A stretch of 64,000 nucleotides of DNA from Pseudofrankia sp. DC12 (GTDB lineage Bacteria; Actinomycetota; Actinomycetes; Frankiales; Frankiaceae), in assembly GCF_000966285.1 (NCBI RefSeq), contig NZ_KQ031391.1, positions 1,698,640 to 1,762,639 of the forward strand, written 5' to 3'. A program made the translations under genes and the position numbers. The notes below the pieces were generated by a model, which searched no databases, was not told the DNA's origin, and saw only the letters and a list, made by a program, of their open reading frames with translations. Numbering within the stretch: the first letter of the stretch is position 1; every line of letters begins with the position of its first letter. Of this stretch, positions 6,665 to 53,500 are shown in pieces.

Positions 6665-6722
6665 GCCCACCCGGGCAGAAGCAGCTCGATCTCAGGATCG
6701 GCGGATGACAGATGTCGGCCCA

Positions 6723-6757
6723 CGCGGCCCCCGTCCAGCTGATGACCGGGGGCCGCG
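6723..6757. terminator. bidirectional hairpin between MFS and protease genes
   Basis: Arms 6723-6735 and 6744-6757 pair over 13 bases with one bulged base and an eight-base loop. It lies between the convergent 3' ends of the MFS gene (6664) and the FtsH-like gene (6784). Confidence 0.75.
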
Positions 6758-6783
6758 CGGGTCGCGGGCTGCCTGCCGCCGGG

Positions 6784-37830: not shown

Positions 37831-39105
37831 CTAATCGAGGAACTCACGCAGGCGGCCGGCTACGGCGGGCTTGCGAAGTTCGCGCAGGGTGTCGCGCTCG
37901 ATCTGGCGGATGCGCTCGCGGGTCAGGCCGAGGCGGTTGCCCACCTCTGCCAGGGTGTGCTGCTTGCCGTCGGCGAGGCCGAACCGCAGGCGCATCACCT
38001 CCCGCTCGCGCGGGGACAGGTTGCCGAGCACGTGGTCGATCTCGTCCTGCATGGCGCCGTACGAGGCGGCGTCCGCGGGCGAGGTCGCGTCCGAGTCCTC
38101 AATGAAGTCGCCGAGCACGGAGTCGCCATCGTCACCGACGGTGGTCTCCAGGCTGACCGTGTCCTGCGCGTACCGGCGCAGCTCCACGACCTGCTCGAGC
38201 GGCATGTCGAGCTCGAGCGCGAGCTCCTCGTCGGTCGGCTCGCGGCCGAGCGTCGAGACGAGCTGGCGCTGCAGTCGAGTGATCTTGTTGATCTGCTCGA
38301 CCACGTGGACGGGGATCCGGATCGTCCGGGCCTGGTCGGCCAGCGCGCGGCCGATGGCCTGGCGAATCCACCAGGTGGCGTAGGTCGAGAACTTGTATCC
38401 CTTGGCGTAGTCGAATTTCTCGACCGCGCGGATGAGACCGAGGTTCCCCTCCTGCACCAGGTCCAACAGCGTCATGCCACGGCCGCTGTACTTCTTGGCG
38501 ACCGAGACGACCAGACGCAGGTTGGCCGAGACCAGCTGCTGCTTGGCGGCCTCGCCGTCGCGGACCAGCAGTTTCAGGTCACGGTGCAGGTCGGGCTCGA
38601 GGTCGCCTGCCGTGTTGAGCTTGTGCTCGGCGAAGAGGCCGGCCTCGACCCGCTTGGAAAGCTCGACCTCCTGGGCGGCGTTGAGCAGCGGGACCCGGCC
38701 GATCTCGCGCAGGTACATGCGCACGAGGTCGGCGGTGCCAGCGTGCTCAGCCGTCACGCGGCCGGGCTCGGACGGGGCAGCGGATCGCTCCGCGCCGTCC
38801 TCCTCCTCGACCACTTCGACGCCGGCCGCGACGAGCCTGGCGACCAGCGCGGGCAGCAGCTCGGTGCCGACGTCGGCGGTCTCGAGGGCCTCGCGCAGCT
38901 CGGACCGGCTGACCTCGCCGGACTCGCGACCGCGGGCGATCAGCTCCGCGACAGTGCTGACGTCGAGTTCGTCAATGTCCTCGGCGACTGCCGTCAGGGT
39001 ACGGGCGGAAGAGGTACGGGCAGCGGAAGTCGACCGACGCGGGCGCCGCGCGCTGGTACGCGCGCGCGGGGCGTCGTCGTGAAGTTCCAGAGCAGACAGC
39101 GTCAT
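37831..39105 (-). CDS. RNA polymerase sigma-70 factor, primary-like (group 1/2)
   Basis: Sigma factor of 424 residues. After a basic, disordered N terminus (1-60) and an acidic region 1.1-like part, it has region 1.2 ([20 protein letters not shown]), region 2 with the core-binding and -10 recognition helix [20 protein letters not shown], region 3 ([15 protein letters not shown]), and region 4 with [19 protein letters not shown] and the helix-turn-helix TRERIRQIE. It resembles SigB of mycobacteria or HrdA/HrdD of Streptomyces as much as HrdB, so I do not say whether it is the essential factor. The ATG at 39105 is preferred; an in-frame start at 39198 adds 31 residues. Confidence 0.93.
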
Positions 39106-39554
39106 CAGTGATAGATCCGAAGGTCGGTGCGAGTGGGTCGTCGTCCTTGCACGTGGAGGTAACGTCTGACGACGCGAACCGATTCCCCGCGCAGGCACAG
39201 CCGGACGGCAGCGAACGCCGGGCCTACGCCGCAGTGTAGACCCTCGACCTCGGGACGCTGTACTCGCTTGTCGCGAAGACTACCCCGCCGATCGGCCGTT
39301 GTGGCTGAAACGACGAACTATCTAGGCAGTTCTTCCCTACAGCACACGCCCCTCGGACGCTTTTCACAACGTCTCGCGGTTGGAACGGCACCCTCTGCAC
39401 AGAAACACACGTCACGTGTAGACGGTTGCCGTCCCACCTTCGAGCGTCACACGTCCAGCATCAGACGGAGTACCCTGCGCGCGGCGTGTAACGACACCAC
39501 ATTTGTGATCCACCCCACACGGGGTCGCCGGCCGCTCGGGCGCGCCGCGGCCGT
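39106..39554. other. intergenic region upstream of sigma-factor gene
   Basis: About 450 bp upstream of the sigma gene and downstream of the glycoside hydrolase gene. It contains a palindrome, ACACGT-C-ACGTGT at 39407-39419, and AT-richer segments at 39300-39330 that may be promoters. No gene seen. Confidence 0.45.
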
Positions 39555-41075
39555 CTAGCCGGCGTCCCCAGCAGCATGGCCGTCGCCGCCGAGGATCCCG
39601 CTGCCGGCGGACCGCCCCACCACGGCGTCGTCGCCGGCCCGCCGGGCGTCCGGCACCCCGGCGACACCTGGCCGCCCACTCGCCATCCGCGCCGCCTCGG
39701 CCTGGATCTCGGGCAGGTCCTCGCGGGCCAACAGGTCGAGCAGCAGCGCCGCGGTCCACGAGAAGCTGTTGCTGCCGGCGCCCGAGCCGTCCAGCGGCGA
39801 GTAATACTCGAACATCTCCCCCGAGTTGACGATCAGGTTCAGCACGTTCGCGCGCAGCTCGCGGGCCGCGTCGTGTCGGCCGTACCGCTCCAGCCCGTCG
39901 GCGAGCAGCCAGTTGATGTTGATCCAGACCGGGCCCTGCCAGTAGCAGCGGGGCTCGAAGACCGGGTCGTCGGCGGGCACGCTCGCGACGCCGTAGCGGG
40001 GCCAGTACCGTGGCGAGGTCATCGCCTTGACCAGCGCGTCGACCCGCTCCTCAGGCACGACGCCCGCGTACAGCGGCAGGAAACCGCCGACGGTCTCGTG
40101 GCGCAGCAGCTCACCGGTACGGAAGTCGCAGCTGTAGTAGGTCGAGGACGACCAGAGCCGCTCCATCGCCTCGCGGCAGCGGCGCATCTGGCGGGTCAGC
40201 CGCTTGGAAAGCGTCACGCCCGCCTCGGCCGCGATCTCGACCAGGTGGTCGTCGGCCCGGACGAGGATCGCGTTGAACGCGACGTCCTGCACCAGCGGCA
40301 CGTCCGTCTCCCGGATGTTCCGGAAGGCATACCCGCTGCGGCGCAGTTCCCGGACCACCCGGTAGAGGGTGAACAGCTCGGCCGAGGTGAGGCGCTCCTC
40401 CGCCGGGACCTCCTTGGAGTCCCGGCGCATCGCGTCCAGTGCCTCGGCCGCGCCCAGCCGCTTGAGCACGTTCACCCGGCGCGGGGTGATCGGGAGCGTG
40501 GCCTCCATCCAGGGCGGGGTGTTGTCCATCCCCGACTCCCAGGAGTGCACCAGCGTGACCAGGCCGTCGTCGTCCGGGTCACGCTCGAAGTGCAGGAACT
40601 CGTGGAAGCGGATCAGGCCAGGCAGCAGGGCGCGGTAGAAGTCCGCGCGGGCCTTCGGGTCGAGCATCTCGCCCACCCGCAGGGCGGCCTCCGCGATCAT
40701 CGGCGGCTGGGTGATCCCGGTGCTCAGCGCGCCCGAGGCCGTCGTGGTGACCCGGTCGATCCGCCACCGCTGCGGGCCGGCGTGGTAGAAGTCGTCGACC
40801 TCGGCGAAGATCACGTGCGGGATCATGCCGTTCGGCCACTGGCCGCGCAGCAGCGAGAGCACCTCGGCCGCGGCCCGGGCCGGGTCGACGTGGCGCAGCC
40901 CGATCGCGATGAAACACGAGTCCCACAGCCACTGGTGTGGATACAGAGTCGGGGACGGCCGGGTGACGTCGCCCAGGTCGTTGCCGCGCAGTACTTCGAC
41001 GGCTGTCGCGCGCAAAGACTGCAGGTCAGGGGGCAACGTGGGGGCTGAGGAACCAGCGGACCTCGGAGCGGGCAT
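39555..41075 (-). CDS. GH63-like glycoside hydrolase (mannosyl/glucosylglycerate hydrolase type)
   Basis: Cytoplasmic (alpha/alpha)6-barrel hydrolase of 506 residues with no signal peptide. Signature stretches are LYPHQWLWDSCFIAIGL, HSWESGMDNTPPWMEA, CYWQGPVWININWLL and GEMFEYYSPLDGSGAGSNSFSW, as in MGH/GgH enzymes that hydrolyse mannosylglycerate or glucosylglycerate. In mycobacteria GgH recycles glucosylglycerate after nitrogen stress; whether this copy has that substrate is inference. The last 35 residues are low in complexity. An ATG at 41075 is used. Confidence 0.87.
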   Translation of the reverse strand: MPAPRSAGSSAPTLPPDLQSLRATAVEVLRGNDLGDVTRPSPTLYPHQWLWDSCFIAIGLRHVDPARAAAEVLSLLRGQWPNGMIPHVIFAEVDDFYHAGPQRWRIDRVTTTASGALSTGITQPPMIAEAALRVGEMLDPKARADFYRALLPGLIRFHEFLHFERDPDDDGLVTLVHSWESGMDNTPPWMEATLPITPRRVNVLKRLGAAEALDAMRRDSKEVPAEERLTSAELFTLYRVVRELRRSGYAFRNIRETDVPLVQDVAFNAILVRADDHLVEIAAEAGVTLSKRLTRQMRRCREAMERLWSSSTYYSCDFRTGELLRHETVGGFLPLYAGVVPEERVDALVKAMTSPRYWPRYGVASVPADDPVFEPRCYWQGPVWININWLLADGLERYGRHDAARELRANVLNLIVNSGEMFEYYSPLDGSGAGSNSFSWTAALLLDLLAREDLPEIQAEAARMASGRPGVAGVPDARRAGDDAVVGRSAGSGILGGDGHAAGDAG

Positions 41076-41487
41076 CGTGCGAGGGTATCCAGCTACTGTT
41101 GCGTCGGAGCCGGCAACCCGTTACAAGCAGCCCCGGTCACGGCGTTTCTTGGCCTTCGCAGACCATTGGGCCGTCTACCAGGCACGATCGTGAAAATGGC
41201 GCATTTCCGCCGGAGATGGGCGGCCGGCCGCAGGGTCCACGAGCCGCCCGCAGGGACGCCGGAAGACCCACGGAAGGGCCGCCGGCGACCGAAGTTTTTC
41301 CCGGCCCCCGCGCCGCCGCGGCCGGGACAGGAGACCGTCGCGCCGACCATCCCGCGGCAAGCCCTGGTAACCACAACGTCACGCGACGAGATCACTCGCC
41401 GCGCGGCCGCGATCCCGCCGGCCCGGCCAGGGCCGAGCGCGCCGCCGGCCCCGGGCACCCGTGCCCCGGGCCCGGCCGGCCGCCTGC
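41076..41487. other. intergenic region upstream of GH63-like gene
   Basis: About 410 bp between the glycoside hydrolase start and the end of the SRPBCC operon. It includes the operon terminator at 41447-41472 and presumably the hydrolase promoter. No gene is supported. Confidence 0.5.
41447..41472 (-). terminator. terminator of SRPBCC-ArsR-SRPBCC operon
   Basis: Arms 41447-41458 and 41461-41472 pair over 12 bases with one C-C mismatch and a two-base gap, 16 bp beyond the stop of the last gene of the operon. Confidence 0.65.
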
Positions 41488-41931
41488 TCAGTGCCAGTCG
41501 CTGATCTGCACGTCTCGCGGCGCGGGCGCGCCCGCGCCCGTCTCCACCAGCGACTTCAGGCTCATCAGGAACGAGCCCCACTTGGTGCTGCAGTGGTGCA
41601 TGAACTCCCCCGGCTCGCGCCAGCCCGCGTGGCTGAACAGCACGATCGTGTAGTCGCCGTTCTGCCGCAGGTCCCAGCCGACCGTCGTCCCGACCCACTC
41701 CTCGGGGCCGTCGACCACTCGCCAGGCCACCCGCTCGGCCGGCCGCAGCTCAACGACCTCCATGTCGAAACCACCGACCGGGAACCGGAACGCCAGCACC
41801 CCGCCGAGGTCGCCGCTTCCCTTCGTGTCCTCGGTCCACCAGCCGGCGAGGCCCTCGACCGTCGTCAGCGCGTCGTACACCTTCTCCGGCGTCGGGGTGT
41901 TCGTTCCGACCCTGTGCAGGATGTCCACCAT
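41488..41931 (-). CDS. SRPBCC (AHSA1-like) ligand-binding protein, second copy
   Basis: Product of 147 residues with the START/Bet v1-like helix-grip fold: MVDILHRVGTNTPTPEKVYDAL at the start, WWTEDTKGSGDLGGVLAFRF, GTTVGWDLRQNGDYTIVLFSH, and the C-terminal helix SFLMSLKSLVETG. Such proteins bind hydrophobic ligands or act as Hsp90 co-chaperone relatives. The ATG at 41931 has GAGGAG upstream. It is third in an operon after an SRPBCC paralogue and an ArsR-type regulator. Ligand unknown. Confidence 0.87.
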   Translation of the reverse strand: MVDILHRVGTNTPTPEKVYDALTTVEGLAGWWTEDTKGSGDLGGVLAFRFPVGGFDMEVVELRPAERVAWRVVDGPEEWVGTTVGWDLRQNGDYTIVLFSHAGWREPGEFMHHCSTKWGSFLMSLKSLVETGAGAPAPRDVQISDWH

Positions 41932-41943
41932 CTCGGCTCTCCT

Positions 41944-41970
41944 CAGTCCTGTCAGTCCTGTCAGTCCTGT
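41944..41970. repeat. three 9-bp tandem repeats
   Basis: CAGTCCTGT is repeated three times exactly, across the ArsR stop codon (41961-41963) and the gap to the next gene. Probably slippage-generated; it may vary in number and shift the C terminus of the regulator. Confidence 0.85.
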
Positions 41971-42323
41971 TGCCTGTCGGCCTGGGCACGCTGGATCGAC
42001 TCGGCGATCCCCTTGATCCGCCGCAGCCGGGCGTCCCACGCCGACCCGACCGCGGTCAGCTGCGCCACGGCGCGCGCGAGCTGGGCGTCGTCCACCCGGT
42101 ATCTCTTCTCGCGGCCGGCCGGCGCCGCCTGGACCAGGCCGACCCGGTCCAGAACGCCGAGGTGCTTGGCCACCGCCTGGCGGGTGACCGGAAGCTGCCG
42201 GCTCAGCGAGGTCGCGGTGCCGGTGCCGTCGATGAGCAGCAGGTCGAGCAGGCGGCGGCGGGTCGGGTCCCCGATCGCGGACCAGAGGTCGTCGTCGACC
42301 TTCTCGGCGACCGCGCTGCTCAC
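41961..42323 (-). CDS. ArsR-family transcriptional regulator
   Basis: Winged helix-turn-helix repressor of 120 residues: DDLWSAIGDPTRRRLLDLLL, then TATSLSRQLPVTRQAVAKHL as recognition helix, and a wing GREKRYRVDD. It lacks the CxC metal-binding motif of ArsR/SmtB sensors, so it is probably not a metal sensor. The GTG at 42323 overlaps the stop of the upstream SRPBCC gene by four bases, so they are translationally coupled. It probably binds the two palindromes upstream of the operon. Confidence 0.88.
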   Translation of the reverse strand: MSSAVAEKVDDDLWSAIGDPTRRRLLDLLLIDGTGTATSLSRQLPVTRQAVAKHLGVLDRVGLVQAAPAGREKRYRVDDAQLARAVAQLTAVGSAWDARLRRIKGIAESIQRAQADRQQD

Positions 42324-42781
42324 GGCCGCACCCCGAGCTTCGCGACGTACGGCCCCAGGCGCGCCAGGTAGAAGTCCCAGCCGGAGACGTGGTCGTTGTA
42401 CTGCTGCTCCAGGACCGCGGCCTCCCAGCCCAGCTCGCGGAAGCCGGTCTCGGTCATCTTCAGCAGCGTGCCGGCGCCCGAGGGGACCAGCTCGAAGGTG
42501 ACCAGCAGCGAGTTGCCCGCCGCCGCGGCCTGGTCGGCCGGGTGCGTCCAGCGGAACGCGAAGGTCCGCGGCTTCCACGCCTCGACGACCGTGAAGGCCA
42601 TCACGGTCCCGCCCGCGTCGCGGTCCCCGAAGACGAGTTCCCCCGTGGATCCGAGGGTCGGCTCGTACCGGGCGTCGTCCGGCCACCACTCCTTGACGTG
42701 GTCGGGACTGCTCACCACCTCGAAGACGACCTCGGGCGACGCGTCAATGTAGATCTCGCGCTCGATGGTGCCGAGCTCCAT
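42320..42781 (-). CDS. SRPBCC (AHSA1-like) ligand-binding protein, first copy
   Basis: Product of 153 residues, MELGTIEREIYIDASPEVVF at the start, with VVSSPDHVKEWWPDDARYEP and the C-terminal VLEQQYNDHVSGWDFYLARL, an AHSA1-type SRPBCC protein. The ATG at 42781 has GGGAGG seven bases upstream; an in-frame start at 42841 would run through both palindromes and is unlikely. First gene of the operon. Confidence 0.87.
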   Translation of the reverse strand: MELGTIEREIYIDASPEVVFEVVSSPDHVKEWWPDDARYEPTLGSTGELVFGDRDAGGTVMAFTVVEAWKPRTFAFRWTHPADQAAAAGNSLLVTFELVPSGAGTLLKMTETGFRELGWEAAVLEQQYNDHVSGWDFYLARLGPYVAKLGVRP

Positions 42782-42792
42782 GGCAGCCTCCC

Positions 42793-42807
42793 GCAACATT
42801 TGGTTGC
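42793..42807. promoter_or_regulatory. operator palindrome 1
   Basis: GCAACATTTGGTTGC, a near-perfect inverted repeat (GCAACM-N3-GGTTGC) 12 bp upstream of the first SRPBCC start. A second copy lies 45 bp away. Probable binding site of the ArsR protein of this operon. Confidence 0.65.
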
Positions 42808-42837
42808 CCTTGAGGTTAGCCGCGGAACCGGCGTTAC

Positions 42838-42852
42838 GCAACCATCGGTTGC
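42838..42852. promoter_or_regulatory. operator palindrome 2
   Basis: GCAACCATCGGTTGC, a perfect GCAACC-N3-GGTTGC inverted repeat, 45 bp centre to centre from the first copy and just after the 3' end of the vWA gene. The promoter of the SRPBCC operon should lie between or across the two. Confidence 0.68.
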
Positions 42853-42856
42853 TTCT

Positions 42857-44086
42857 TCAGTGCGTGGCTTCGATGACCACCGTGCGAGCCCACCCAGGCG
42901 GGTTCGGCCCGGTGGTGCCCAGACCGGGTTCGCGCAGCAGGCCGATGACGACCCGGACGCCGGGCGGAGGCTGCTCGGGCCAAGGGGTGTAGCCGTCGGT
43001 GAGCACGATGATCGTCGACGGGCGCGGGCGCAGCCTGGCGGCCGCGGCGATACCCGCGCCCATGTCCGTGCCGCCTCCGCCGGCCAGGCGGACCTGACCG
43101 GCCTGGCTGACTCGCCGCAGCGTGGGCACGGTGGTGTCGACCGCGAGCACCCGGACCCCGCCGCCGCGCAGCCCGGCCCGGCTCAGAATGCCGTCGATCT
43201 CGGCGAGCGCCTGGGCGAGCAGGCCTTCGTGCATGGAACCCGAGGTGTCGCAGACGATGGCCACCTCGGGGACCGGCCGGCGCATCGTGGGCAGCACGAC
43301 GCCGGGCGCGGCGCGCGCCCGCCGGGACGGGTGGCGGTAGCTGTAGTCGACCGCACCGGCCGCGACGCTGATCGCGGCGCGGATCTCGGCCGCGAGCACC
43401 CGCCGCCAGTCGACCCGTGACGGCAGCATCGCCTCGGCCCACCGCAGCCAGCCGCCGGCGACCGTGCCCGGGTCGGTCGCGTACTGGCGGTGGATGTCCG
43501 CGGCGACGCCGAGCCGCAACAGGTCGCCCTGCGCACGTGAGAGCCCGCCGGGCGGCCCGTCCGCCGTGTGGTCCCCCGTTTCGATGCCACCGCCGCGCTC
43601 TGCGGGCCGGGCATCGGCACCGGCCCCGCAGTCCCAGTGCCGGGGCCCGGGCACGGCCACCCGGTAGTAGGCCTCCGTGAGCTGTCCGGCCGGGGCGTCA
43701 AGGTCTCCCGGCAGGTCGGGGGCCGCGCGCGGCCGGCAGCCGTCGACCTCAAGGTCGTCGTTGATCTCCGCGTCGGCGGACCTGTTCCAGCGGGCGCGGC
43801 CCTCGTCTTCGGTGACGCCGTTCGCCTCGGCCCGGGCCGCGTGATCGCGGATCAGATGGCCGGTGAGATGGAGGAACAACCGGCCCAGCTCAGTCGGGTC
43901 GAAGCCGGCCAGGAGGTCGGGGTCGACGCAGAGCCGCCAGTTCCGGTCGACGGCGATCGTGCCGCTCGCGGGCGCGGCCACGACGGAGCAGGCGAACAGG
44001 GCGCGGGCCAGGTAGGGCTGGCGGGCGACCGCCCAGATCCGCGCGGCGGCGATCTTCGTCCGGTCCGGCCCGGTCAGCGCGCTCAT
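42857..44086 (-). CDS. DUF2201/vWA-domain protein, partner of MoxR ATPase
   Basis: Product of 409 residues. The N-terminal half is the putative metallopeptidase region of DUF2201, with LGRLFLHLTGHLIRDHAARA; the expected HExxH is HLTGH, so the catalytic Glu is absent. The C-terminal half is a von Willebrand A domain with MIDAS motif CDTSGSMH, a threonine in GGGGTDMG and an aspartate in VLTDGYTPWP. Such proteins pair with MoxR AAA+ ATPases in metal-dependent chaperone-like or conflict systems. The ATG at 44086 is chosen; the frame extends to 44332 through an 18-bp repeat array and could add a hexapeptide-repeat N terminus. Confidence 0.85.
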   Translation of the reverse strand: MSALTGPDRTKIAAARIWAVARQPYLARALFACSVVAAPASGTIAVDRNWRLCVDPDLLAGFDPTELGRLFLHLTGHLIRDHAARAEANGVTEDEGRARWNRSADAEINDDLEVDGCRPRAAPDLPGDLDAPAGQLTEAYYRVAVPGPRHWDCGAGADARPAERGGGIETGDHTADGPPGGLSRAQGDLLRLGVAADIHRQYATDPGTVAGGWLRWAEAMLPSRVDWRRVLAAEIRAAISVAAGAVDYSYRHPSRRARAAPGVVLPTMRRPVPEVAIVCDTSGSMHEGLLAQALAEIDGILSRAGLRGGGVRVLAVDTTVPTLRRVSQAGQVRLAGGGGTDMGAGIAAAARLRPRPSTIIVLTDGYTPWPEQPPPGVRVVIGLLREPGLGTTGPNPPGWARTVVIEATH

Positions 44087-44109
44087 CGCCGCTGGTCCGC
44101 TCGGCTCAC

Positions 44110-44217
44110 CCCGACAAGCCGGCTCAGCCGGGCAAGCCAGCTCAGCCGAGGGCGCCGGCCCATCCGAGAAGGCCGGCTCATCCCGCGAGGCCGGCTCATC
44201 CGAGCAGGCCGGCCTCG
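44110..44217. repeat. six imperfect 18-bp tandem repeats
   Basis: Six consecutive 18-bp units, centred on GCCGGCTCAT, run from 44110 to 44217. They cover the last codons of the MoxR gene (stop 44196) and the gap before the vWA start. Because 18 is a multiple of three, the frame of the vWA gene stays open through them and would encode a degenerate SDEPAx hexapeptide. Confidence 0.8.
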
Positions 44218-45299
44218 CGCAGCAGTGGGGCGAACGTCGACACCTCGGGTGGGATCGGCGCGCCGGCCGGGCGGCAGCGGGCCAGGGTGCGGGCGGCGGC
44301 CGCCGCGACGTCGGGAGCCGCGTGGGCGGCACGCCCGAACGCCCGCCAGCCGCGCTCCCAGCGCCCCGAGCCCGGGTCCGCGGCGACCACGGCCGCGATC
44401 GACGAAAGCGCCGCGTAGGCCCGGTCGCCCCGTTCCGGCAGGACGAAGGAGTCCGGGTCTGCCAGCACGGACTCGGGGTCGGGTAGGTCCGCCTCGACGA
44501 GCCAGGTCAGGAACTCCGCCCCGGCGCCCGGGCCGACGCAGCCGCGCACCAGCAGCGAGACCATCCCGTCGCCGACGGCGGCGGCCCGCGCCGCGGCGAG
44601 CAGCCGAGCCGTCATCTCCCAGGTCCGCGGGCTCGGCCAGGCCCGCCCCGCGGTCAGGGCCTGCTCAGGCACGGCGATGGTCAGCTCGGGCCGTACGGTC
44701 AGGAACCCGGCCACCCAGCTGCGGGCCACCGGGACCTGGTCGGGCCAGTCGCCGGCCAGGGCGGGCGGCGTGACGGTCGGCCAGCCGCCGGCGAAGCCCT
44801 CGGCCACGGCGCGTGGGTCCAGCGGCCAGTCCAGATGGCAGAAGCGGTTGGCCAGCGGCGCGGAGAGATCCCAGCCGTCGGCGGCCTGCTCCGGCGGGTT
44901 GGCCGCGGCCACGACGGCGACCTCGTCGGGCAGGGTGAGATCGCCGACCGTTCGTTCCAGCACGACCCGAAGCAGCGCAGCCTGCACCGCCGGCGGCGCG
45001 GTGGAGATCTCGTCGAAGAACACCAGCCCGTGCCCGGCGCCGACCAGCCGGGTCGCCCACCGTGGCGGCGCGAACTCCACCCGGGCGGACCCGCCGAGGC
45101 CGGTCACGACCGGGAGCCCGGCGAAGTCGGAGGGCTCCCGGATGGAGGAGATCACCGTCTCGCACGGCCAGCCCGCCGCCTCGGCCATCGCCTGGATCGC
45201 CGAGGTCTTGCCGGTCCCGGGCGGTCCCCACAGCAGCACCGGGACCCGGGCCGCGACGGCAAGGCCAAGCGCCCCGGTTACCGAAGACTGTCCACCCAC
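44196..45299 (-). CDS. MoxR-like AAA+ ATPase
   Basis: Product of 367 residues: Walker A WGPPGTGKTSAIQAM, Walker B GLVFFDEIS, sensor 1 VVAAANPPEQA, and ANRFCHLDW with the arginine after sensor 1. MoxR-family ATPases act as chaperones that insert metal or remodel partners, usually with a vWA protein encoded next door, as here. The GTG at 45299 is chosen since homology starts at once (VTGALGLAVAARVPVLLWGPP); a frame to 45404 overlaps the divergent gene. The start is only 26 bp from the divergent start at 45326. Confidence 0.88.
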   Translation of the reverse strand: MGGQSSVTGALGLAVAARVPVLLWGPPGTGKTSAIQAMAEAAGWPCETVISSIREPSDFAGLPVVTGLGGSARVEFAPPRWATRLVGAGHGLVFFDEISTAPPAVQAALLRVVLERTVGDLTLPDEVAVVAAANPPEQAADGWDLSAPLANRFCHLDWPLDPRAVAEGFAGGWPTVTPPALAGDWPDQVPVARSWVAGFLTVRPELTIAVPEQALTAGRAWPSPRTWEMTARLLAAARAAAVGDGMVSLLVRGCVGPGAGAEFLTWLVEADLPDPESVLADPDSFVLPERGDRAYAALSSIAAVVAADPGSGRWERGWRAFGRAAHAAPDVAAAAARTLARCRPAGAPIPPEVSTFAPLLREAGLLG

Positions 45300-45325
45300 A
45301 TGCGCAGTGTGGCAGGCTCTCCGCG

Positions 45326-46585
45326 GTGGACGGATTTGACGGCGAACTCCACCTCCGCCTGCTTGGCGAGCGACTGCTGCTTTCCGGTGCGTCGCAGGAT
45401 CCACTCGGCGACCCGCTGACTGGGCAGGCGCGGGCCCTGGCGGCCGTGGGCGCCGTCGCCAGGCCGGTGGCGCAACGCGTCGTCGACGACTACGCCCGGG
45501 CCCGCGCGCTGCGCGGACAGGGCGGACCGGCCCAGTCCGGACCGCCGCCCTCGGCCGCGCCGCTCCCGGCTCGCCGGATCGCTCCGGGCCGCCGTGTGAT
45601 CAGGCAGCCTACCGGCGACCTGGAGATCCGTTACGCCATCCTGGGCCCGACCGAGACCCGTCTCGCCATTACCTTCCGGTCCAACGCGCGGGTCTCGCCC
45701 GACGTGGCCCGCCGCCCGGCGGGCATGCCGATCGGCATCACCACGGTGCCTTCGATCAGCGTGACCGACGACCGGGGCACGACGGTCACCTCGTCGGCGT
45801 TCTCCGGCGGCGGCACGGCCCTTCAGTGGCGCGGGTTCCTGACGCTGCGGCCCGCGCTGGCCCCGGACACCGGGTGGATCGAGCTGTATGGCGAACGAGT
45901 CGTGCTCGGGCCGGACGCGAGCGACCGAGCGGTCACGATCGACCACTTGGCCGAGGCCGACGCGGTCGAGCGCTACCTGGCCCAGTGCCTGGCCGTGGAC
46001 AGCGCGCAGCCGCGCCCCCGGGCGATGGCCCACGCACTCGGGGCGCTGCGGGCCGCCGGCCTCGTCGACGGCGCCGATCCCGCGATCGCCGCCATCGCCG
46101 CGGTCTACAACGCGCTCATCCCCCAGTCGGGGCCGTACCTCCTGCCGGCCACGCTAGCGGCCGGGCACTGGCGGTCGCTGCTCGCCCGGCGCGGCACCAC
46201 CGGCGGCCCGCGCCGGGCGCTGTTCGTCGGAGCGACCACGCCGGTGTTCGACGGGATCAGGGCCACCCTGCTGGACCTGACCTCGACCGATGACCGGTTC
46301 CAGTGCGACTTCGAGATCGCCGGCCCGATCGAGCTCGGCATGGCCGGCGACGCCAGCCTCGGCCGGACCGTCGTCACGTCCGGCGCGCTAGACGACCTCG
46401 GCAACTTCTACCTCGGTCAGCCGGGTACCTGGGGCTGGGGCGGCGGCGACGGCAGCACCTTCTCCGGCACACTCGACTTCTGGCCGGCACTCGATCCAGC
46501 AGCGACGCGGCTCGACCTCATCCTCACCACCGACCGGGCCCGCGTCACGATTGCCGTGCCCCTGACCTGGGACGCCGCCCCGTGA
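45326..46585 (+). CDS. unknown protein of the MoxR/vWA locus, beta-rich
   Basis: Unrecognised protein of 419 residues. It has a short N-terminal region, a central beta-rich part (about 95-200, from GDLEIRYAILGPTETRLAITF to WIELYGERVVL) resembling an Ig-like sandwich, a helical middle (DHLAEADAVERYLAQCL to LPATLAAGHWRSLL), and a second beta-rich part (about 300-419) ending LTTDRARVTIAVPLTWD. No signal peptide or membrane helix. Its stop overlaps the next gene by four bases. GTG at 45326 is my choice; the frame is open upstream to 45062 across the divergent gene. Function unknown; context links it to the MoxR/vWA pair. Confidence 0.75.
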   Translation: MDGFDGELHLRLLGERLLLSGASQDPLGDPLTGQARALAAVGAVARPVAQRVVDDYARARALRGQGGPAQSGPPPSAAPLPARRIAPGRRVIRQPTGDLEIRYAILGPTETRLAITFRSNARVSPDVARRPAGMPIGITTVPSISVTDDRGTTVTSSAFSGGGTALQWRGFLTLRPALAPDTGWIELYGERVVLGPDASDRAVTIDHLAEADAVERYLAQCLAVDSAQPRPRAMAHALGALRAAGLVDGADPAIAAIAAVYNALIPQSGPYLLPATLAAGHWRSLLARRGTTGGPRRALFVGATTPVFDGIRATLLDLTSTDDRFQCDFEIAGPIELGMAGDASLGRTVVTSGALDDLGNFYLGQPGTWGWGGGDGSTFSGTLDFWPALDPAATRLDLILTTDRARVTIAVPLTWDAAP

Positions 46586-47469
46586 CGCCGAGCTGGTGGG
46601 CTGGGCTGACACCCCTCGAAGAGACAGTCCGCTGTGGCGACGGCATGCACCGGATCCGGTGGGCTGGCGGCAACCTCGCCACCCCCGACCATGAGGATCC
46701 CGACGGGGAACGCACGCTCGGCGCACTCGGCGGCGAGTCCGCGCCCTGCATCGCGATCCTCGACGCCTGGCAGCGCCACCGCGCCGACCTCGACGTGCTG
46801 CTGCTCACCAGCCGCGGCAGCGTCGACCCGCTCCGGCTCCCGGCCACGGGCGGGCCTGGCGGCTGGATGGCCACGGTCCCGGCTGCGATGGCCATGCCCG
46901 CGCCACCCATGGCCAGGCCCCCACTACCCCCGCATATCCCAGCGATGCCCGCGTCGTTCGTCCCGGGGAGCCCGACGCGTGCCCGCGCCAGGTCAGGCGG
47001 CTTCTACTACGCGGGCGGCGGCCACGGCCCGGGCGGGCAACCGCGCGACGACACCCTGACAGGGCTGTTGCGCCTGCCGGGAACGCTGCCCGACCGGCTC
47101 GTCGCCACCGTCGTCGCCGCCTGGGCGCAACGGATCGCCGACGACGACCCGCGCGTCGCCGAGTCACTTCCCGCACTGCACGCAGCCCTGTACGGGCGCG
47201 CGCTGGCCGCCGCCCGCTCCTGGCTCGGCGGCGGGCCCACGTTCGACGTCCGGCTGGCTGCCTCGCCGGCCGTCGTCCGCCGCCCGGACGGCATCATCGC
47301 AGCGGAGCTGCCGTTCAGCTGGCTGCGCGACGTCTGGGCCCGCGGCTTCGCCACCCTCGCCGGCCATTTCTGCCTCACCGCCCAGCCCGGCCCGGCCGGC
47401 GACTGGACCTTCACCACCATCGCCCCCGACTGCGGCCCACCCGAACAGCTGACCCTGCGCACCCCGTGA
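46582..47469 (+). CDS. unknown protein of the MoxR/vWA locus
   Basis: Unrecognised protein of 295 residues, beginning MTPSWWAGLTPLEETVRCGD and GMHRIRWAGGNL, then DAWQRHRADLDVLLLTSRG, a Met/Pro-rich linker (about 95-135) and a C-terminal globular half with LPALHAALYGRALAAARSWL and PFSWLRDVWARGFATLAGHF. The GTG start overlaps the stop of the previous gene (GTGA), so the two are co-translated. No enzyme motif, signal or membrane helix seen. Confidence 0.75.
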   Translation: MTPSWWAGLTPLEETVRCGDGMHRIRWAGGNLATPDHEDPDGERTLGALGGESAPCIAILDAWQRHRADLDVLLLTSRGSVDPLRLPATGGPGGWMATVPAAMAMPAPPMARPPLPPHIPAMPASFVPGSPTRARARSGGFYYAGGGHGPGGQPRDDTLTGLLRLPGTLPDRLVATVVAAWAQRIADDDPRVAESLPALHAALYGRALAAARSWLGGGPTFDVRLAASPAVVRRPDGIIAAELPFSWLRDVWARGFATLAGHFCLTAQPGPAGDWTFTTIAPDCGPPEQLTLRTP

Positions 47470-47578
47470 CGGCGGTATCGACGTCCGCTCCCTTCCATAT
47501 CTGGCCACCGAGAAGTCGCCGTCGGGCAGTAGCGTTACCGGCGGCACGCGTACTCATCGGCAGGAAGGGCCAAGGCCC

Positions 47579-48124
47579 GTGGTCGAGCCAGCCGGTCAGA
47601 CGGTCGTCGAACGACCGGACGCCGCGACCGTTCCCGCCGCACGCACCGGGCGGTTTCATGCCGCGACGGAGAGCGTCTCCCGGCGTCTTCCGTCCGGGTT
47701 GTCGCGGATCGTCACTCCCAGCGTTCTCGGCTTCGCCGTGATCAACGGGTTCACGTTCACCGTCGACCTCAGCCTGCTGACGGTTTTCCGCTCTGGCCTG
47801 CATTGGCCGCTTCCCGCCGTGATCACGCTCTCCTACCTGGTGGCCTTCGGGCTGAGCTTCCTGCTGAACCGCCGCTTCAACTTCCGCTCCCACGGCCCGG
47901 TCGGCGGGCAGGTCACGATCTACCTCGTCGCCATCGCCATCAACTACGCGGCGTTCATCCTGGGTGTCACCGACGGCCTCGCCCACCTCGGCGTCGAGTA
48001 CCACATCGCTCGGCTCGTCGGGGGTTCGTGCGAGGCGATCTACATGTACTGCGTCATGCGCTGGGTCGTCTTCCCGGACAGGGGAAGCCCGAACCGCAGG
48101 GGCAACAGCCCGCAGGAAGCCTGA
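47579..48124 (+). CDS. GtrA-family membrane protein
   Basis: Product of 181 residues with four hydrophobic helices (about 48-66, 76-96, 113-133 and 146-166) and the family motif AFGLSFLLNRRFNFR between helices 2 and 3. GtrA proteins are thought to flip polyprenyl-linked sugars across the membrane for surface-polysaccharide synthesis. GTG at 47579 follows an AGGAAGG site. A disordered N terminus of about 40 residues precedes the first helix. No glycosyltransferase gene is nearby. Confidence 0.87.
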   Translation: MVEPAGQTVVERPDAATVPAARTGRFHAATESVSRRLPSGLSRIVTPSVLGFAVINGFTFTVDLSLLTVFRSGLHWPLPAVITLSYLVAFGLSFLLNRRFNFRSHGPVGGQVTIYLVAIAINYAAFILGVTDGLAHLGVEYHIARLVGGSCEAIYMYCVMRWVVFPDRGSPNRRGNSPQEA

Positions 48125-48669
48125 CGCGGGAACCAGACGCCCATGACGTCAGTATCGACATCAGGGCATGGTGACTCATTCACCACGCCGCATTCGCATT
48201 GCGTTGGGCAGCCCCGCCAGTGGCGAAGGATTGGCGACCACCAGTCGAGCCACTCAAGCTGGCGGAGGGACTTGTTCGCGGCCTGCGGTTTTCCCGGCGA
48301 ACCGAAGCAGCCGCCGCTCGACCCCGGTGAACCGCCGGGGTAGCCCACGTTCTGACTCACGCCCAACACGATTCCTCGACAACAAACCCAACATCGGCAA
48401 CGACCTCCCTGGCCGGGGTCCAGGAGAGATCGCGCCGGCCCGGACGGCCGAGGGCTGCCAATGCCCGCGTGAAGCGTTGCCAAGGGCCAGTCACCGACAC
48501 CACGCACCCCAGCGTCACTCATCGCGACCATTAGCCGAGCCTGAGTCATCCACACACGCCGATCATCGGCTGGCTGTCGGCACGGGTCTCGTCGTGGTCA
48601 CCGAGCGCGCCGCAAATCATGCAACAAGCAAAATTTCCGACATTGCGGATGGGCATGACTTCACCTAGC
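48125..48669. other. intergenic region before DUF2752 gene
   Basis: About 545 bp without a gene I can support; frames such as 48168-48668 show no domain and mixed codon use. Base composition is less GC-rich than its neighbours near 48600-48665, where the promoter of the next gene is likely. Confidence 0.5.
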
Positions 48670-49119
48670 ATGCGGCGAATGCCGTCTGCGGGTACACGGG
48701 GGATGCCGGCGATGCTGCGGAGGATGTACTCGGTCCCCGAGCACATCACCATGGCCGGGCTGGGTGCGGGCCTGATCGGGGCGATCTACCCGACGATCAT
48801 GGCGCACACGGGCGAGCGGGGCCTTTTCTGCCCACTGCGCGCGCTGACCGGCCTGCCGTGTCCGTTCTGCGGGCTGACGACCGCGACGGTCGCGCTGACC
48901 CACAGCGAGTGGGCGGCTGCTGCGAGCACCAGCCCTCTTGTCTATCTCGTGGCGGCACTGGTTACCGCGACGACGCCGATCCTGGCTGCCCGGCTCCTCG
49001 GCCTGGCGCCACCGCCACGCCCCTGGTCCGCCGCCGCGCGTGCGCGGACCCGGTATTCGGCCTACGTCGTCGTGGCCCTCAGCTGGCTCCTCCAGCTGCA
49101 TCGGTACCACTTCATCTAA
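48670..49119 (+). CDS. DUF2752 membrane protein
   Basis: Product of 149 residues with three hydrophobic helices and the family motif FCPLRALTGLPCPFCGLTTA, whose cysteines may bind metal. Several in-frame ATGs exist (48619, 48670, 48679, 48703, 48712); the best ribosome site is unclear, so the start is uncertain. It precedes an RDD-family gene by 46 bp, a common pairing in actinobacteria. Function unknown. Confidence 0.82.
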   Translation: MRRMPSAGTRGMPAMLRRMYSVPEHITMAGLGAGLIGAIYPTIMAHTGERGLFCPLRALTGLPCPFCGLTTATVALTHSEWAAAASTSPLVYLVAALVTATTPILAARLLGLAPPPRPWSAAARARTRYSAYVVVALSWLLQLHRYHFI

Positions 49120-49165
49120 GCGGTCGCCAACCCATGCAGGACCGCTCTTCTCAGAAAGGCCGACC

Positions 49166-49795
49166 GTGACCGGCTACAACCCACCCCCGTCCGAGCCGAC
49201 TCCCCCGCAGTGGGGCCAGCAGCCCCAGCCCGGCCAGTACCCGCAGTACCCGCAGCCCGGCCAGTACCCACCGGCCGATCAGTACCAGCAGCCCGGCCAG
49301 TACCAGCAGCCCGGCCAGTACCCGCCCGCCGGTCAGGGCGGCTACTACCAGCCCAACCCGTACGCACAGCCGGGGTACGGGTCCGGCCAGCCCGCGGGGC
49401 CAGGCGCCTACGCCAGCTGGGCCCAGCGAGTCGGCGCATACCTCATCGACGTGTTGCCGCAGATCATCGTGCTGGGGCTGTTCGGAGCGATTCTCCGCGG
49501 CCCGGCGGTGGCGCTCCTGGTGATCCTCTGGCTGGCCTCACTCGGCTGGATCATCTACAACCGCTGGATCCAGGCCGGCAGAACCGGTCAGTCGCTGGGC
49601 CGCAAGACGCTGAACATCCGACTCGTCAGCGAGGTCACCGGCCAGCCGATCGGACCGGCGATGGCGTTCGCCCGCGATCTCTGCCACTTCGTCGACAGCG
49701 TCATCTGCTACATCGGCTACCTGTTCCCGCTGTGGGACCCCAAGCGGCAGACGCTCGCCGACAAGATCGTGAAGACGGTCGTCGTGCCCGCCTGA
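49166..49795 (+). CDS. RDD-family membrane protein with GQY/P repeats
   Basis: Product of 209 residues. The N-terminal 75 residues are a Pro/Gln/Tyr/Gly repeat region (units like QPGQYPQ, DNA 49230-49345), followed by the RDD domain with YASWAQRVGAYLIDVLP, two or three helices, SLGRKTLNIRLVSEVTG and the conserved PLWDPKRQTLADKIVKTVVV. RDD proteins may be ion antiporters or scaffold proteins. The GTG at 49166 has AGAAAGG upstream. Confidence 0.88.
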   Translation: MTGYNPPPSEPTPPQWGQQPQPGQYPQYPQPGQYPPADQYQQPGQYQQPGQYPPAGQGGYYQPNPYAQPGYGSGQPAGPGAYASWAQRVGAYLIDVLPQIIVLGLFGAILRGPAVALLVILWLASLGWIIYNRWIQAGRTGQSLGRKTLNIRLVSEVTGQPIGPAMAFARDLCHFVDSVICYIGYLFPLWDPKRQTLADKIVKTVVVPA

Positions 49796-49920
49796 TCGTC
49801 GCGGGAGCATGACCCCCCGTCCTGGGACCACCGGAGTCCCAGGACGGGTATTGGTCGCGACCCGCGCGGGGGATCTCGGATACTGGCGGAGGCATTCTTT
49901 CGCGCTGCGCCGCCGCTCGG

Positions 49921-50544
49921 ATGACCGAGGAACCGGTCACCCTCCTGCGGGGGCCACGCGCGGTGGGCAAATCGACCCTGCTACGCCGCCCGGCGGATCG
50001 GGTCAGTGGCGAGCGGGCGCGCGCTCGACGGTGGCCCCCTGCATGCCTGGTCGAGGCCGGCCTGACCTACGCCGCGCTCGCCGAACTTGCGATCCGAGGC
50101 CTTCCAGGCGGCTACGACCTCGACCACCTGCGCGGTTTCCACCGCGAGATCTTCGGGGATCTGTATCCGTGGGCAGGCGAGATCCGCACGGTGAGCATCG
50201 CCAGGACAGACCCGTTCTGCCTGCCCCAGCACATCGAGTCATATGCCCATGAGGTCTTCACCCGCCTCGCAGGCGAGCAGCATCTCCGCGGCCTCGACCG
50301 CGACGTCCCCGACCGGGACGGCCGGCGTGCCGACGTGGGGCTTTCCGCGTACCGGTTGCGGCAGACGCAACAAACAATCTTGAGGCGCTCCTCAGGTGGG
50401 GTGCGGCCACCGGGCCTCACCCCACCTGACCTGGGAACTCAGCTCCCGGAGGTGCCCGGAACGACTAGCTGCAGCCGCTGGTGGAGCCGCACTGTTCGCA
50501 GACGTAGCAGCTGCCGGCGGGGCGCATGGTCACGCCGCAGGTGA
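49921..50544 (+). pseudogene. composite remnant: AAA P-loop start joined to Fic-domain fragment
   Basis: The frame begins MTEEPVTLLRGPRAVGKSTL, the Walker A region of a DUF4143-type AAA protein, then without the rest of that protein continues as the N-terminal part of a Fic domain: LRGFHREIFGDLYPWAGEIR, TDPFCLPQHIES and LAGEQHLRGLDRD. The catalytic HPFxxGNGR motif of Fic is missing; after about residue 125 the sequence loses similarity and runs into the nrdJ 3' end. It looks like two decayed toxin-type genes fused by deletion. Whether it is expressed is unknown. Confidence 0.7.
50392..50429 (-). terminator. terminator of nrdJ
   Basis: TCAGGTGGGGTG (50392-50403) pairs perfectly over 12 bases with 50418-50429 across a 14-base loop. 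It lies 36 bp beyond the nrdJ stop, within the decayed Fic frame. Confidence 0.72.
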
Positions 50545-53500
50545 AGCAGAGCGGGGCGTCGACAGCGGTCTGGGCGAACAGCGACTGGCCGGGGGCGGCA
50601 CCGCGCAGCTCCAGCTCGACGAACGCCGGACCGTGGCCCGTGTGCTCGCCGGACTTCGCGGCGGCCGGCGGCGCGGTCGGGGCGATCTCGGTCTCGGGCG
50701 GGTCGGCCAGGTCCGCGTCGGCCGGGCCGCCGTACTGGCCCGAGATCTGCCGGGCCCGCTCGGCGGCGGTCAGGATGCCGAGCTCCGCGCGCTGCTCCTC
50801 GGACAGGTAGTCCAGGGCGAGGCGGCGGAACAGGTAGTCCATCAGCGACTGGGCGATCCGGATGTCCGGGTCGTCGGTCATCCCGGCCGGCTCGAACCGC
50901 ATGTTGATGAACTTCGAGACGTAGGTCTCCAGCGGCACGCCGTACTGCAGCGCGATCGAGATCGCGATCGAGAACGCGTCCATGACGCCGGCCAGCGTCG
51001 AGCCCTGCTTGGACATCTTGACGAAGATCTCGCCGAGGCCGTTGTCCGGGTAGGAGCCAGCGGTCATGTAGCCCTCGGCACCGCCGACGGAGAACGAGAC
51101 GGTCTGCGACGGGCGGGTCTTCGGCAGCCGCCTGCGGACCGGTCGGTGCACGACCGGGGCCGGGGCCGCACTGGTGCCGGCGTTCGCGTCGGCGATCGCC
51201 TTCGCCTCGTCCACCGAGCGCTTCGCGCCCCGGACGTCGGTGAGCGGCTGACCGACCTTGCAGTTGTCCCGGTAGATCGCCAACGCCTTCAGGCCGAGCC
51301 TCCAGCCCTCGACGTAGATCTCCTCGACTTCCTCGACGGTCGCCGTCTCGGGCATGTTGACCGTCTTGGAGATCGCACCGGACAGGAACGGCTGCACGGC
51401 GGCCATCATCCGGACGTGGCCGACCGGGGCGATGGCCCGCTCGCCGATCGCGCAGTCGAACACCTCGTAGTGCTCGGGACGCAGCCCAGGGGCGTCGATG
51501 ACGTGGCCGTGCTCGGCGATGTACTCGACGATCGCCTCGAGCGTTTCCTCCGTGTACCCCAGGGCCCGCAGCGCGGCCGGCACGGTCTGGTTGACGATCT
51601 TCATGCTGGCGCCGCCGACGAGCTTCTTCATCTTGACCAGCGCCAGGTCCGGCTCGATGCCGGTCGTGTCGCAGTCCATCGCCAGGCCGATGGTGCCGGT
51701 CGGCGCGAGCAGGCTGGCCTGGGCGTTGCGCCAGCCGTCGCGCTCGCCGACCGCCAGGCACTTCGCCCACTCCTGGCCGGCGGCGGCCAGGATGCGCGCG
51801 TCCTCGCTGTGCACGCTGCGGACCGCGTCGTTGGCGGCGGCGTGCTTGCGGATCACGCGGCGGTGGCCGTCGGTGTCCCGGGCATAGCCGTCGTACGGGC
51901 CGACGACACCGGCGAGCTCGGCCGAGCGGCGGTACGCGGTCCCGGTCATCAACGAGGTGATCGCGGCGGCGAGCGTCCGGCCACCCTCGGAGTCGTACGC
52001 GCGGGCCGAGGCCATCAGCAGCGCGCCGAGGTTGGCGTAGCCGATGCCGAGCTGGCGGTAGGCGCGGGTGACCTCGGTGATCTGGGGCGTCGGGAAGTCG
52101 GCGAAGCAGATCGAGATGTCCATCGCGGTGATGATCAGCTCGACGGCGTGGATGAAGCCCTCGACGTCGAAGGTGAGGTCACTGCGCAGGAACCGCATCA
52201 GGTTCAGCGAGGCGAGGTTGCAGCTGGAGTTGTCCAGGTGCATGTACTCCGAGCACGGGTTGCTGGCCGAGATCCGGCCGGCCTCCGGGGTGGTGTGCCA
52301 GTCGTTGATGACGCCGTCGTACTGGATTCCCGGGTCGGCGCACTCCCAGGCCGCCGTGGCGATCTTGCGCATGAGTTCGCGCGCGTCGACCGACTCGATC
52401 ACCCGGTGGTCCATCCGGGCCCGCAGGTCGAACGAGGTGCCGTCCTGGACCGCGCGCATGAAGTCGTCCGTGACGCGGACGGAGTTGTTGGCGTTCTGGT
52501 ACTGGACCGACGTGATGTCCTTGCCGCCGAGGTCCATGTCGAAGCCGGCGTCCCGCAGCGCGCGGATCTTGTCCTCCTCGCGCGCCTTGGTCTCGACGAA
52601 CTCGACGACGTCTGGGTGGTCGACGTCGAGCACGACCATCTTCGCGGCGCGCCGGGTGGCCCCGCCGGACTTGATGGTCCCCGCTGACGCGTCGGCGCCG
52701 CGCATGAAGCTGACCGGCCCCGAAGCCGTTCCACCCGAGGACAACAGCTCCTTGGACGAACGAATGCGGGAGAGGTTCAGGCCGGAGCCCGAGCCGCCCT
52801 TGAAGATCAGGCCTTCCTCGCGGTACCAGTTGAGGATCGACTCCATCGTGTCGTCGACCGCGAGGATGAAGCAGTTGTGCACCCGCAGGCCGTTCGAGAG
52901 GTACTCCCCGCTGTCAGTCTGGATGTCGTAGACCGGCATCCGCCCGAGCGACTCGATCCGGTCGATCAACAACGTCTTGACCGGGTTGGCACGACGGCCG
53001 GGAAGCTCGAAGGACCTCTCAAGCTTCTCTGCCTTGGCGGTATCAACGAAACCGATCTCGTCGGCGAAGATCCGCCGGTCGCCGGCATTCTGGATCCGCA
53101 GGCTCCACAGGTCGTGCCGGTTGGGACGCGGGTCGGCCTTGCGACCGACTCGGGCGAAGATCCCGAAGCGAGCCAGCAGCGCCTGTACGCCCCGGATCAG
53201 CTCCTCAGAGATCATGTCGAAAGCGACCAGGGTCGACCGCTGCCGCGCCGACACATATCCCTCAGCCTGGAAGAGGCTGCGCAGATATGCCGCCACGACT
53301 GGCAGCGGCGCGGCAAGCAAACGGGCTGGCACCCGCATGTCCACGCCACGGGCACGCAAATCCCAATCCGTGACGAACTCGTTGAGGACGTCGCCATAGA
53401 GACGCAGGCGGCGGCAGTCGAGCGTCGGGTCCTGAACCTCCTGCCTCCGCTCGTGGCGATGGACTCCGGGAAACACCAGATCGACGGCCGCCGCGACCCA

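Follow-up and report, generated by a model that had tools for sequence, protein, structure and literature searches.

Are two proteins of no assignable family, encoded face to face with a MoxR AAA+ ATPase and a DUF2201/vWA protein, the dedicated partners of that pair, and does the resulting system correspond to one already described? The question is raised by a compact divergent four-gene cassette in a 64,000-nucleotide stretch of Pseudofrankia sp. DC12 (contig NZ_KQ031391.1, positions 1,698,640 to 1,762,639; hereafter the window), whose genome forms one contig of 6.88 Mb. The vWA and MoxR genes lie on the minus strand and two overlapping genes, whose products are named here X (419 residues) and Y (295 residues), on the plus strand. 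Open reading frames (ORFs) and family matches bear out this layout, first recognized in a sequence-only reading of the same DNA, and neither X nor Y matches any Pfam, NCBIfam or PADLOC model at E ≤ 1, as that reading had anticipated. Its suggestion that both proteins serve the pair as substrates or effectors fares unequally. The link of Y to the pair is strong (42 of 42 genomes, and a match between trees) and a role as client or adaptor is plausible from the sequence comparisons, while the link of X is confined to four close genomes. We propose, with belief and doubt about evenly balanced, that MoxR and the vWA protein make up an ATP-driven remodelling machine whose own partner, Y, is encoded with it and docks through a small N-terminal module. 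Below, G and L numbers denote genomes and loci of our samples.

The module occupies the first part of Y, spans about 55 residues and contains four ligand-like positions, C18, H23, H37 and C56. This Cys, His, His, Cys set is invariant in 47 of 47 module copies, which derive from 41 loci including the window (profile E ≤ 1e-5) and, as close relatives are included, are not independent; no other column is invariant, and a Glu is found in 46 of the 47. On the residue set alone, this CHHC module probably binds zinc. It is shared with Z, a protein longer than Y that carries the module in its second half: the Y N terminus matches a C-terminal stretch of Z (36% over 64 residues, hhalign E 1e-6), and the match strengthens with deeper alignments (hhalign E 3.1e-9). 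Profile comparisons of X with Y, X with Z and the Y C terminus with Z show nothing convincing outside the module. Solved-structure searches with Y, module and X profiles return nothing at E ≤ 1, and AlphaFold models from three-sequence alignments have a mean pLDDT (predicted local distance difference test) of 39.6 for Y and 39.4 for X.

Across genomes, the module is found in company with the vWA protein. In a class sample of 393 genomes, searched with the same settings for both, 42 genomes carry module and vWA protein at E ≤ 1e-7, 17 the vWA protein alone, 334 neither and none the module without the vWA protein; weak copies may be missed, because only 16 module or 4 vWA candidates were scored per genome. 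With the vWA protein in 59 of 393 genomes, the association has a Fisher p of 4e-43, related genomes not being independent, and 51 of the 52 module copies at this threshold share a contig with a vWA match and begin no more than 8 kb from it. At the looser E ≤ 0.01 the counts become 45 genomes with both, 10 with a module-like match only and 14 with vWA only, matches between E 1e-3 and 0.01 being treated as probable chance. In a phylum sample of 396 genomes, the Y profile has a match at E ≤ 0.01 in 17; 13 of these cover the module, each in a genome with a vWA match, and the other four (G061, G099, G200 and G266; best E 5.4e-5) lie mostly or wholly outside it. Two stretches around such off-module matches (L060 and L061) contain no MoxR or vWA match. 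Y relatives are encoded beside a MoxR-vWA pair in G486 of the same class (one) and, in other classes, in G060 (one), G046 (three) and G184 (one of two copies).

Both core proteins are readily assigned. The vWA protein matches DUF2201_N (PF13203; E 1.8e-21, 77.4 bits against a cut-off of 23.2) and DUF2201 (E 6.3e-20) and consists of a metallopeptidase-like domain followed by a vWA domain, whose match (residues 357–487 of 491) almost reaches the C terminus. In a motif alignment of 42 vWA proteins, the window protein retains the conserved MIDAS residues (DTSGS, GGGTD and TDG); the catalytic HExxH motif is absent and reads HLTGH. The MoxR protein matches AAA_5 (E 3.1e-9), bpMoxR (29.3 bits, just above the cut-off of 27) and Mg_chelatase. 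It keeps, like its relatives, what we take to be the Walker A, Walker B, sensor 1 and arginine-finger-like motifs. Its best solved-structure match by sequence is Midasin (E 1.3e-10), which joins AAA+ modules and a MIDAS-bearing vWA domain in one giant eukaryotic chain for ribosome assembly; we know of no partner of Midasin with a CHHC module.

The partner encoded with this core varies from locus to locus. Further vWA matches occur in the same-genus genomes G003, G005 and G006, in the same-family genomes G008 and G023 (fragments) and in G034 of the same class. The five sister loci inspected contain the MoxR-vWA pair without X and Y, four of them (L027–L030) with Z and one (L026, from G034) with a protein named here T. 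Z-type loci come from the genus and the family of the window and from family f18, which may be Streptomyces-like. In one Z branch ankyrin repeats follow the module in 13 of 13 proteins scanned, one of them only below Pfam's cut-off; the label had been assigned from length and Z-profile score and was then confirmed. A leucine-rich-repeat protein of about 377–402 residues adjoins the ankyrin-bearing Z in all eight loci scanned (L036, L063, L064, L066, L067, L068, L070 and L081), and G705 carries three tandem Z copies beside the pair (L062). A third type of partner, about 249–276 residues long with repeated helices by eye, replaces the module protein in one vWA clade (Table 1); a Pfam scan of the L075 copy gave no match.

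Partner type follows the phylogeny of the core with the fewest possible changes. In the tree of 42 vWA proteins, all eight rows of Y type fall into a single clade (support 98/89); the window groups there with loci from other classes, apart from the Z loci found in its own genus. Over 38 labelled rows and six partner types, this tree requires five changes, the minimum, or four, again the minimum, when the two Z types are merged; 500 label shuffles each require at least 16. A quick MoxR tree likewise gives five changes, or four with Z merged (37 rows). Partner labels were assigned by us, L072 being grouped with L071 by eye; the counts exclude four rows without a recognized partner and the fragment loci L047 and L048 (other partner, module-less), and some long branches of the vWA tree are uncertain.

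The catalytic glutamate of HExxH is distributed along the same lines. It is lost in all eight Y-type vWA proteins and kept in 23 of 23 proteins of Z and ankyrin-Z loci, so that partner type and peptidase site differ together between clades. It is also kept in the T-type protein and in the unlabelled rows L077 and L080, and lost in the three readable helical-partner proteins, in both proteins of the L071/L072 type and in the unlabelled L073 and L079. The joint change of peptidase motif and partner would also suit a Y that regulates or inhibits the peptidase-like vWA protein, the true client being encoded elsewhere in the genome. We consider such a role quite unlikely, since ten and seven Y matches per single vWA gene, in G060 and G046 respectively, are easier to understand as many clients than as many inhibitors.

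These multiple copies belong to a class represented by three genomes, of which G060 has ten Y-profile matches (weakest E 1.3e-4) and one vWA match, G046 seven and one, and G075 none of either. Nine stretches with off-pair Y copies (L049–L057) contain no MoxR or vWA match, contigs C91, C102 and C106 of G060 lying outside this set. By eye, the neighbours of dispersed Y copies in two 2.6-Mb genomes are housekeeping-like. The sequence-only reading had staked its case on homologues not living regularly apart from the pair. This holds for whole genomes of the class, where 0 of 42 have the module alone at E ≤ 1e-7, and fails for operons: Y is tied to the genome that encodes the pair, not always to its operon, because most G060 and G046 copies lie on other contigs. 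A tentative and rather less probable extension would make the CHHC module a portable tag for clients, by which the single MoxR-vWA machine of a genome recognizes many carriers; this would define a fifth MoxR-vWA type.

Several observations weigh against Y as the docked partner of a remodelling machine. Y lies off the contig of the pair in nine of ten cases in G060 and four of seven in G046, in fragmented assemblies from which true distances cannot be read. One of the 52 class module copies, an ankyrin-bearing Z (G705:C21), is away from the pair, and 19 of 70 vWA matches, fragments included, lack any module match (E ≤ 0.01) up to 8 kb away. Among the examined vWA loci without a module, L077 and L079 are contig ends, L074, L075, L076 and L078 encode a different partner, and none is recognized at L073 or at L080, where genes are poorly called. 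A metal is apparently not always needed, because the N terminus of T is module-like (12.7 bits, reached by 0 of 300 shuffles) and lacks most of the ligands. X was tried as a second carrier of the module: the N termini of four X proteins score 2.0–4.5 bits, a weak resemblance equalled by 1–11 of 300 shuffles, and X is not claimed as a carrier because shuffles reach its score. Finally, association across genomes does not tell a client from an adaptor or a regulator.

The CHHC set also brings to mind maturation chaperones such as NorQD or CoxD-CoxE, and metal insertion is described for known MoxR-vWA pairs (PMC13036017, PMC7159879). By analogy, MoxR and the vWA protein would load a metal into the invariant site of Y. 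Small zinc sites, however, usually load without a chaperone, T keeps the pair without most ligands and the cassette contains no gene for a known metalloenzyme, and we regard this explanation as distinctly improbable. NorQ-NorD resembles the present pair in that a vWA partner joins a MoxR-like AAA+ ring and transmits ATP-driven force towards a target, and differs from it in that the target is nitric oxide reductase, which the cassette does not encode (PMC13036017).

The remodelling reading can be set against described systems. ATP-driven remodelling of partner proteins is established for other MoxR-vWA pairs (PMC7159879; NorQD, PMC13036017). Ternary systems, as presented in PMC7159879, comprise four types (VMAP, iSTAND, FtsH and beta-propeller), subtypes being defined by unrelated third components. 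The cassette shares with them a MoxR ATPase, a vWA protein and a conserved third component; in contrast, its vWA protein begins with a DUF2201 metallopeptidase-like domain and its third component has a CHHC module. No FtsH or inactive STAND protein is present among nine ORFs in 39555–49119 and the ORF at 41964–42323, and no beta-propeller in the proteins scanned at the cassette. The main text of PMC7159879 does not use the term DUF2201, and a literature search, with subscription papers mostly outside it, retrieved no paper joining DUF2201 and MoxR, the DUF2201 papers being apparently unrelated by title; judged from titles and opening lines of abstracts, it showed nothing else on this system. 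Also close are the Z-type DUF2201/vWA-MoxR loci, whose core genes are the same and whose partner likewise carries the module; they differ in a longer partner, the position of the module, an intact HExxH and, in one branch, ankyrin repeats. In the proteins scanned, the cassette shows the defining features of none of the four described ternary types.

Since some ternary systems take part in biological conflicts (PMC7159879), the pair might keep X and Y as effectors in a latent state as long as no invader has been sensed. The fast divergence of X and Y and the repeat proteins of the sister branch (ankyrin-bearing Z, 13 of 13; adjoining leucine-rich-repeat protein, 8 of 8) would fit an anti-invader system of this sort. 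Neither X nor Y, however, contains an effector, EAD or VMAP-C (PF20028) domain at E ≤ 1 or matches PADLOC. VMAP-C is also unmatched in the whole genome, though 14 control genomes likewise gave none. Searches of plasmids with X and Y found no match, and the neighbours of the dispersed Y copies in the two 2.6-Mb genomes look by eye like housekeeping genes. A conflict role is unproven, because no effector domain is recognized, and we judge it unlikely.

Returning to the remodelling machine, its working would be as follows. MoxR would form an AAA+ ring and the DUF2201/vWA protein would act as its co-chaperone, gripping the partner through the MIDAS site of the vWA domain. Y would be the dedicated client or adaptor, with the CHHC module as docking handle and a variable C-terminal part holding the activity that is switched or matured. 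With the catalytic glutamate gone from the metallopeptidase-like domain, the machine of the Y clade would remodel without cutting. X may be a lineage-specific extra subunit, co-translated with Y.

X is found in 4 of 41 genomes (its own and 40 relatives), all of one genus and representing four of its eight genomes; named carriers among the relatives are Pseudofrankia asymbiotica and Frankia nepalensis. Y is present in the same four, and vWA, MoxR, X and Y occur together in each. Across 296 class genomes, X is found in these four only, and we ascribe two further partial matches in the class sample (E 0.006 and 0.009) to chance. X consists of two possibly repeated beta-rich halves, their likeness reaching an hhalign E of 0.007 only. 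Past the far side of Y, the window, L032 and the pair L009/L031 each have different genes; by eye, L032 carries beyond Y a HipA-like gene and a small helix-turn-helix gene in G003 (5594–7127, minus strand).

The X and Y genes look real, because their homologues in three further genomes are free of stops and their ratios of non-synonymous to synonymous rates (dN/dS, NG86; window, L009 and L032, L031 being left out for its ambiguous bases) are 0.48–0.63 and 0.43–0.54; MoxR has 0.22–0.27 and vWA 0.35–0.47. Between window and relatives, dN is 0.21–0.26 for X and Y, 0.13–0.15 for vWA and 0.06 for MoxR; X and Y diverge faster than MoxR, a pattern that the partners of a conserved engine might show. 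The X and Y genes overlap by GTGA, and in L009 and L031 the vWA and MoxR genes share a 4-bp overlap by their gene coordinates. Comparison with relatives places the starts probably at 44086 for vWA and 45299 for MoxR. No sigma-70-like promoter or terminator is predicted in 42700–47700, no RNA family in 39000–51000 and no tRNA in the window. Neighbourhoods of relatives come from a purpose-made gene finder, which is weak on the lower-GC loci L035, L049 and L080.

Table 1. Features of the cassette (window positions) and helical partners at four related loci (positions within each locus).
Feature	Position	Strand	Basis
DUF2201/vWA protein, 409 aa	42857..44086	-	Pfam; start by coding score and relatives; open frame extends to 44332
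Imperfect tandem repeat, about 18/36 bp, between MoxR and vWA	44102..44213		Tandem Repeats Finder
MoxR-type AAA+ ATPase, 367 aa	44196..45299	-	Pfam AAA_5, bpMoxR, Mg_chelatase; start from relatives
Divergent gap MoxR/X, 26 bp	45300..45325		21–22 of 26 bases identical in L009, L031, L032
X, 419 aa, known from one genus	45326..46585	+	No family match
Y, 295 aa, family without a name	46582..47469	+	Relatives next to DUF2201/vWA and MoxR genes or elsewhere in genomes that have them
CHHC module of Y	46627..46794	+	Profile match G000:C1:1745266-1745433, E 2.8e-22
Helical partners	L074 3231-4001; L075 6471-7274; L076 6862-7611; L078 6349-7179		

Around the cassette, two AHSA1-type genes and an ArsR-type regulator (41488–42799, minus strand) separate it from an MGH1-like glycoside hydrolase gene; in L009 and L031 the gene directly adjoining vWA is hydrolase-like and has a similar N terminus. 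On the other side, 49921–50544 (plus strand) encodes by eye a Fic-like stretch, FGDLYPWAGEIR, in which the full Fic motif, HPFxxGNGR, is apparently missing, possibly a broken Fic gene. An ORF of 1367 aa at 50465–54568 (minus strand) looks, on inspection by eye, like a ribonucleotide reductase of the vitamin B12-dependent kind that carries an intein-like insert; its counterpart in L032, 1013 aa long, may be without the insert.

Partner choice and action of MoxR-vWA machines are poorly understood. If the client-tag proposal were true, up to ten Y-type clients would be encoded in one small actinobacterial genome, and the new type would comprise a pseudo-peptidase branch with Y and a peptidase branch with Z. 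A short module that tracks one branch of the machine across a phylum and has four invariant residues makes partner choice testable by mutation, and because the glutamate is lost where the partner differs, nature provides two machines to compare, one that remodels and one that possibly cuts.

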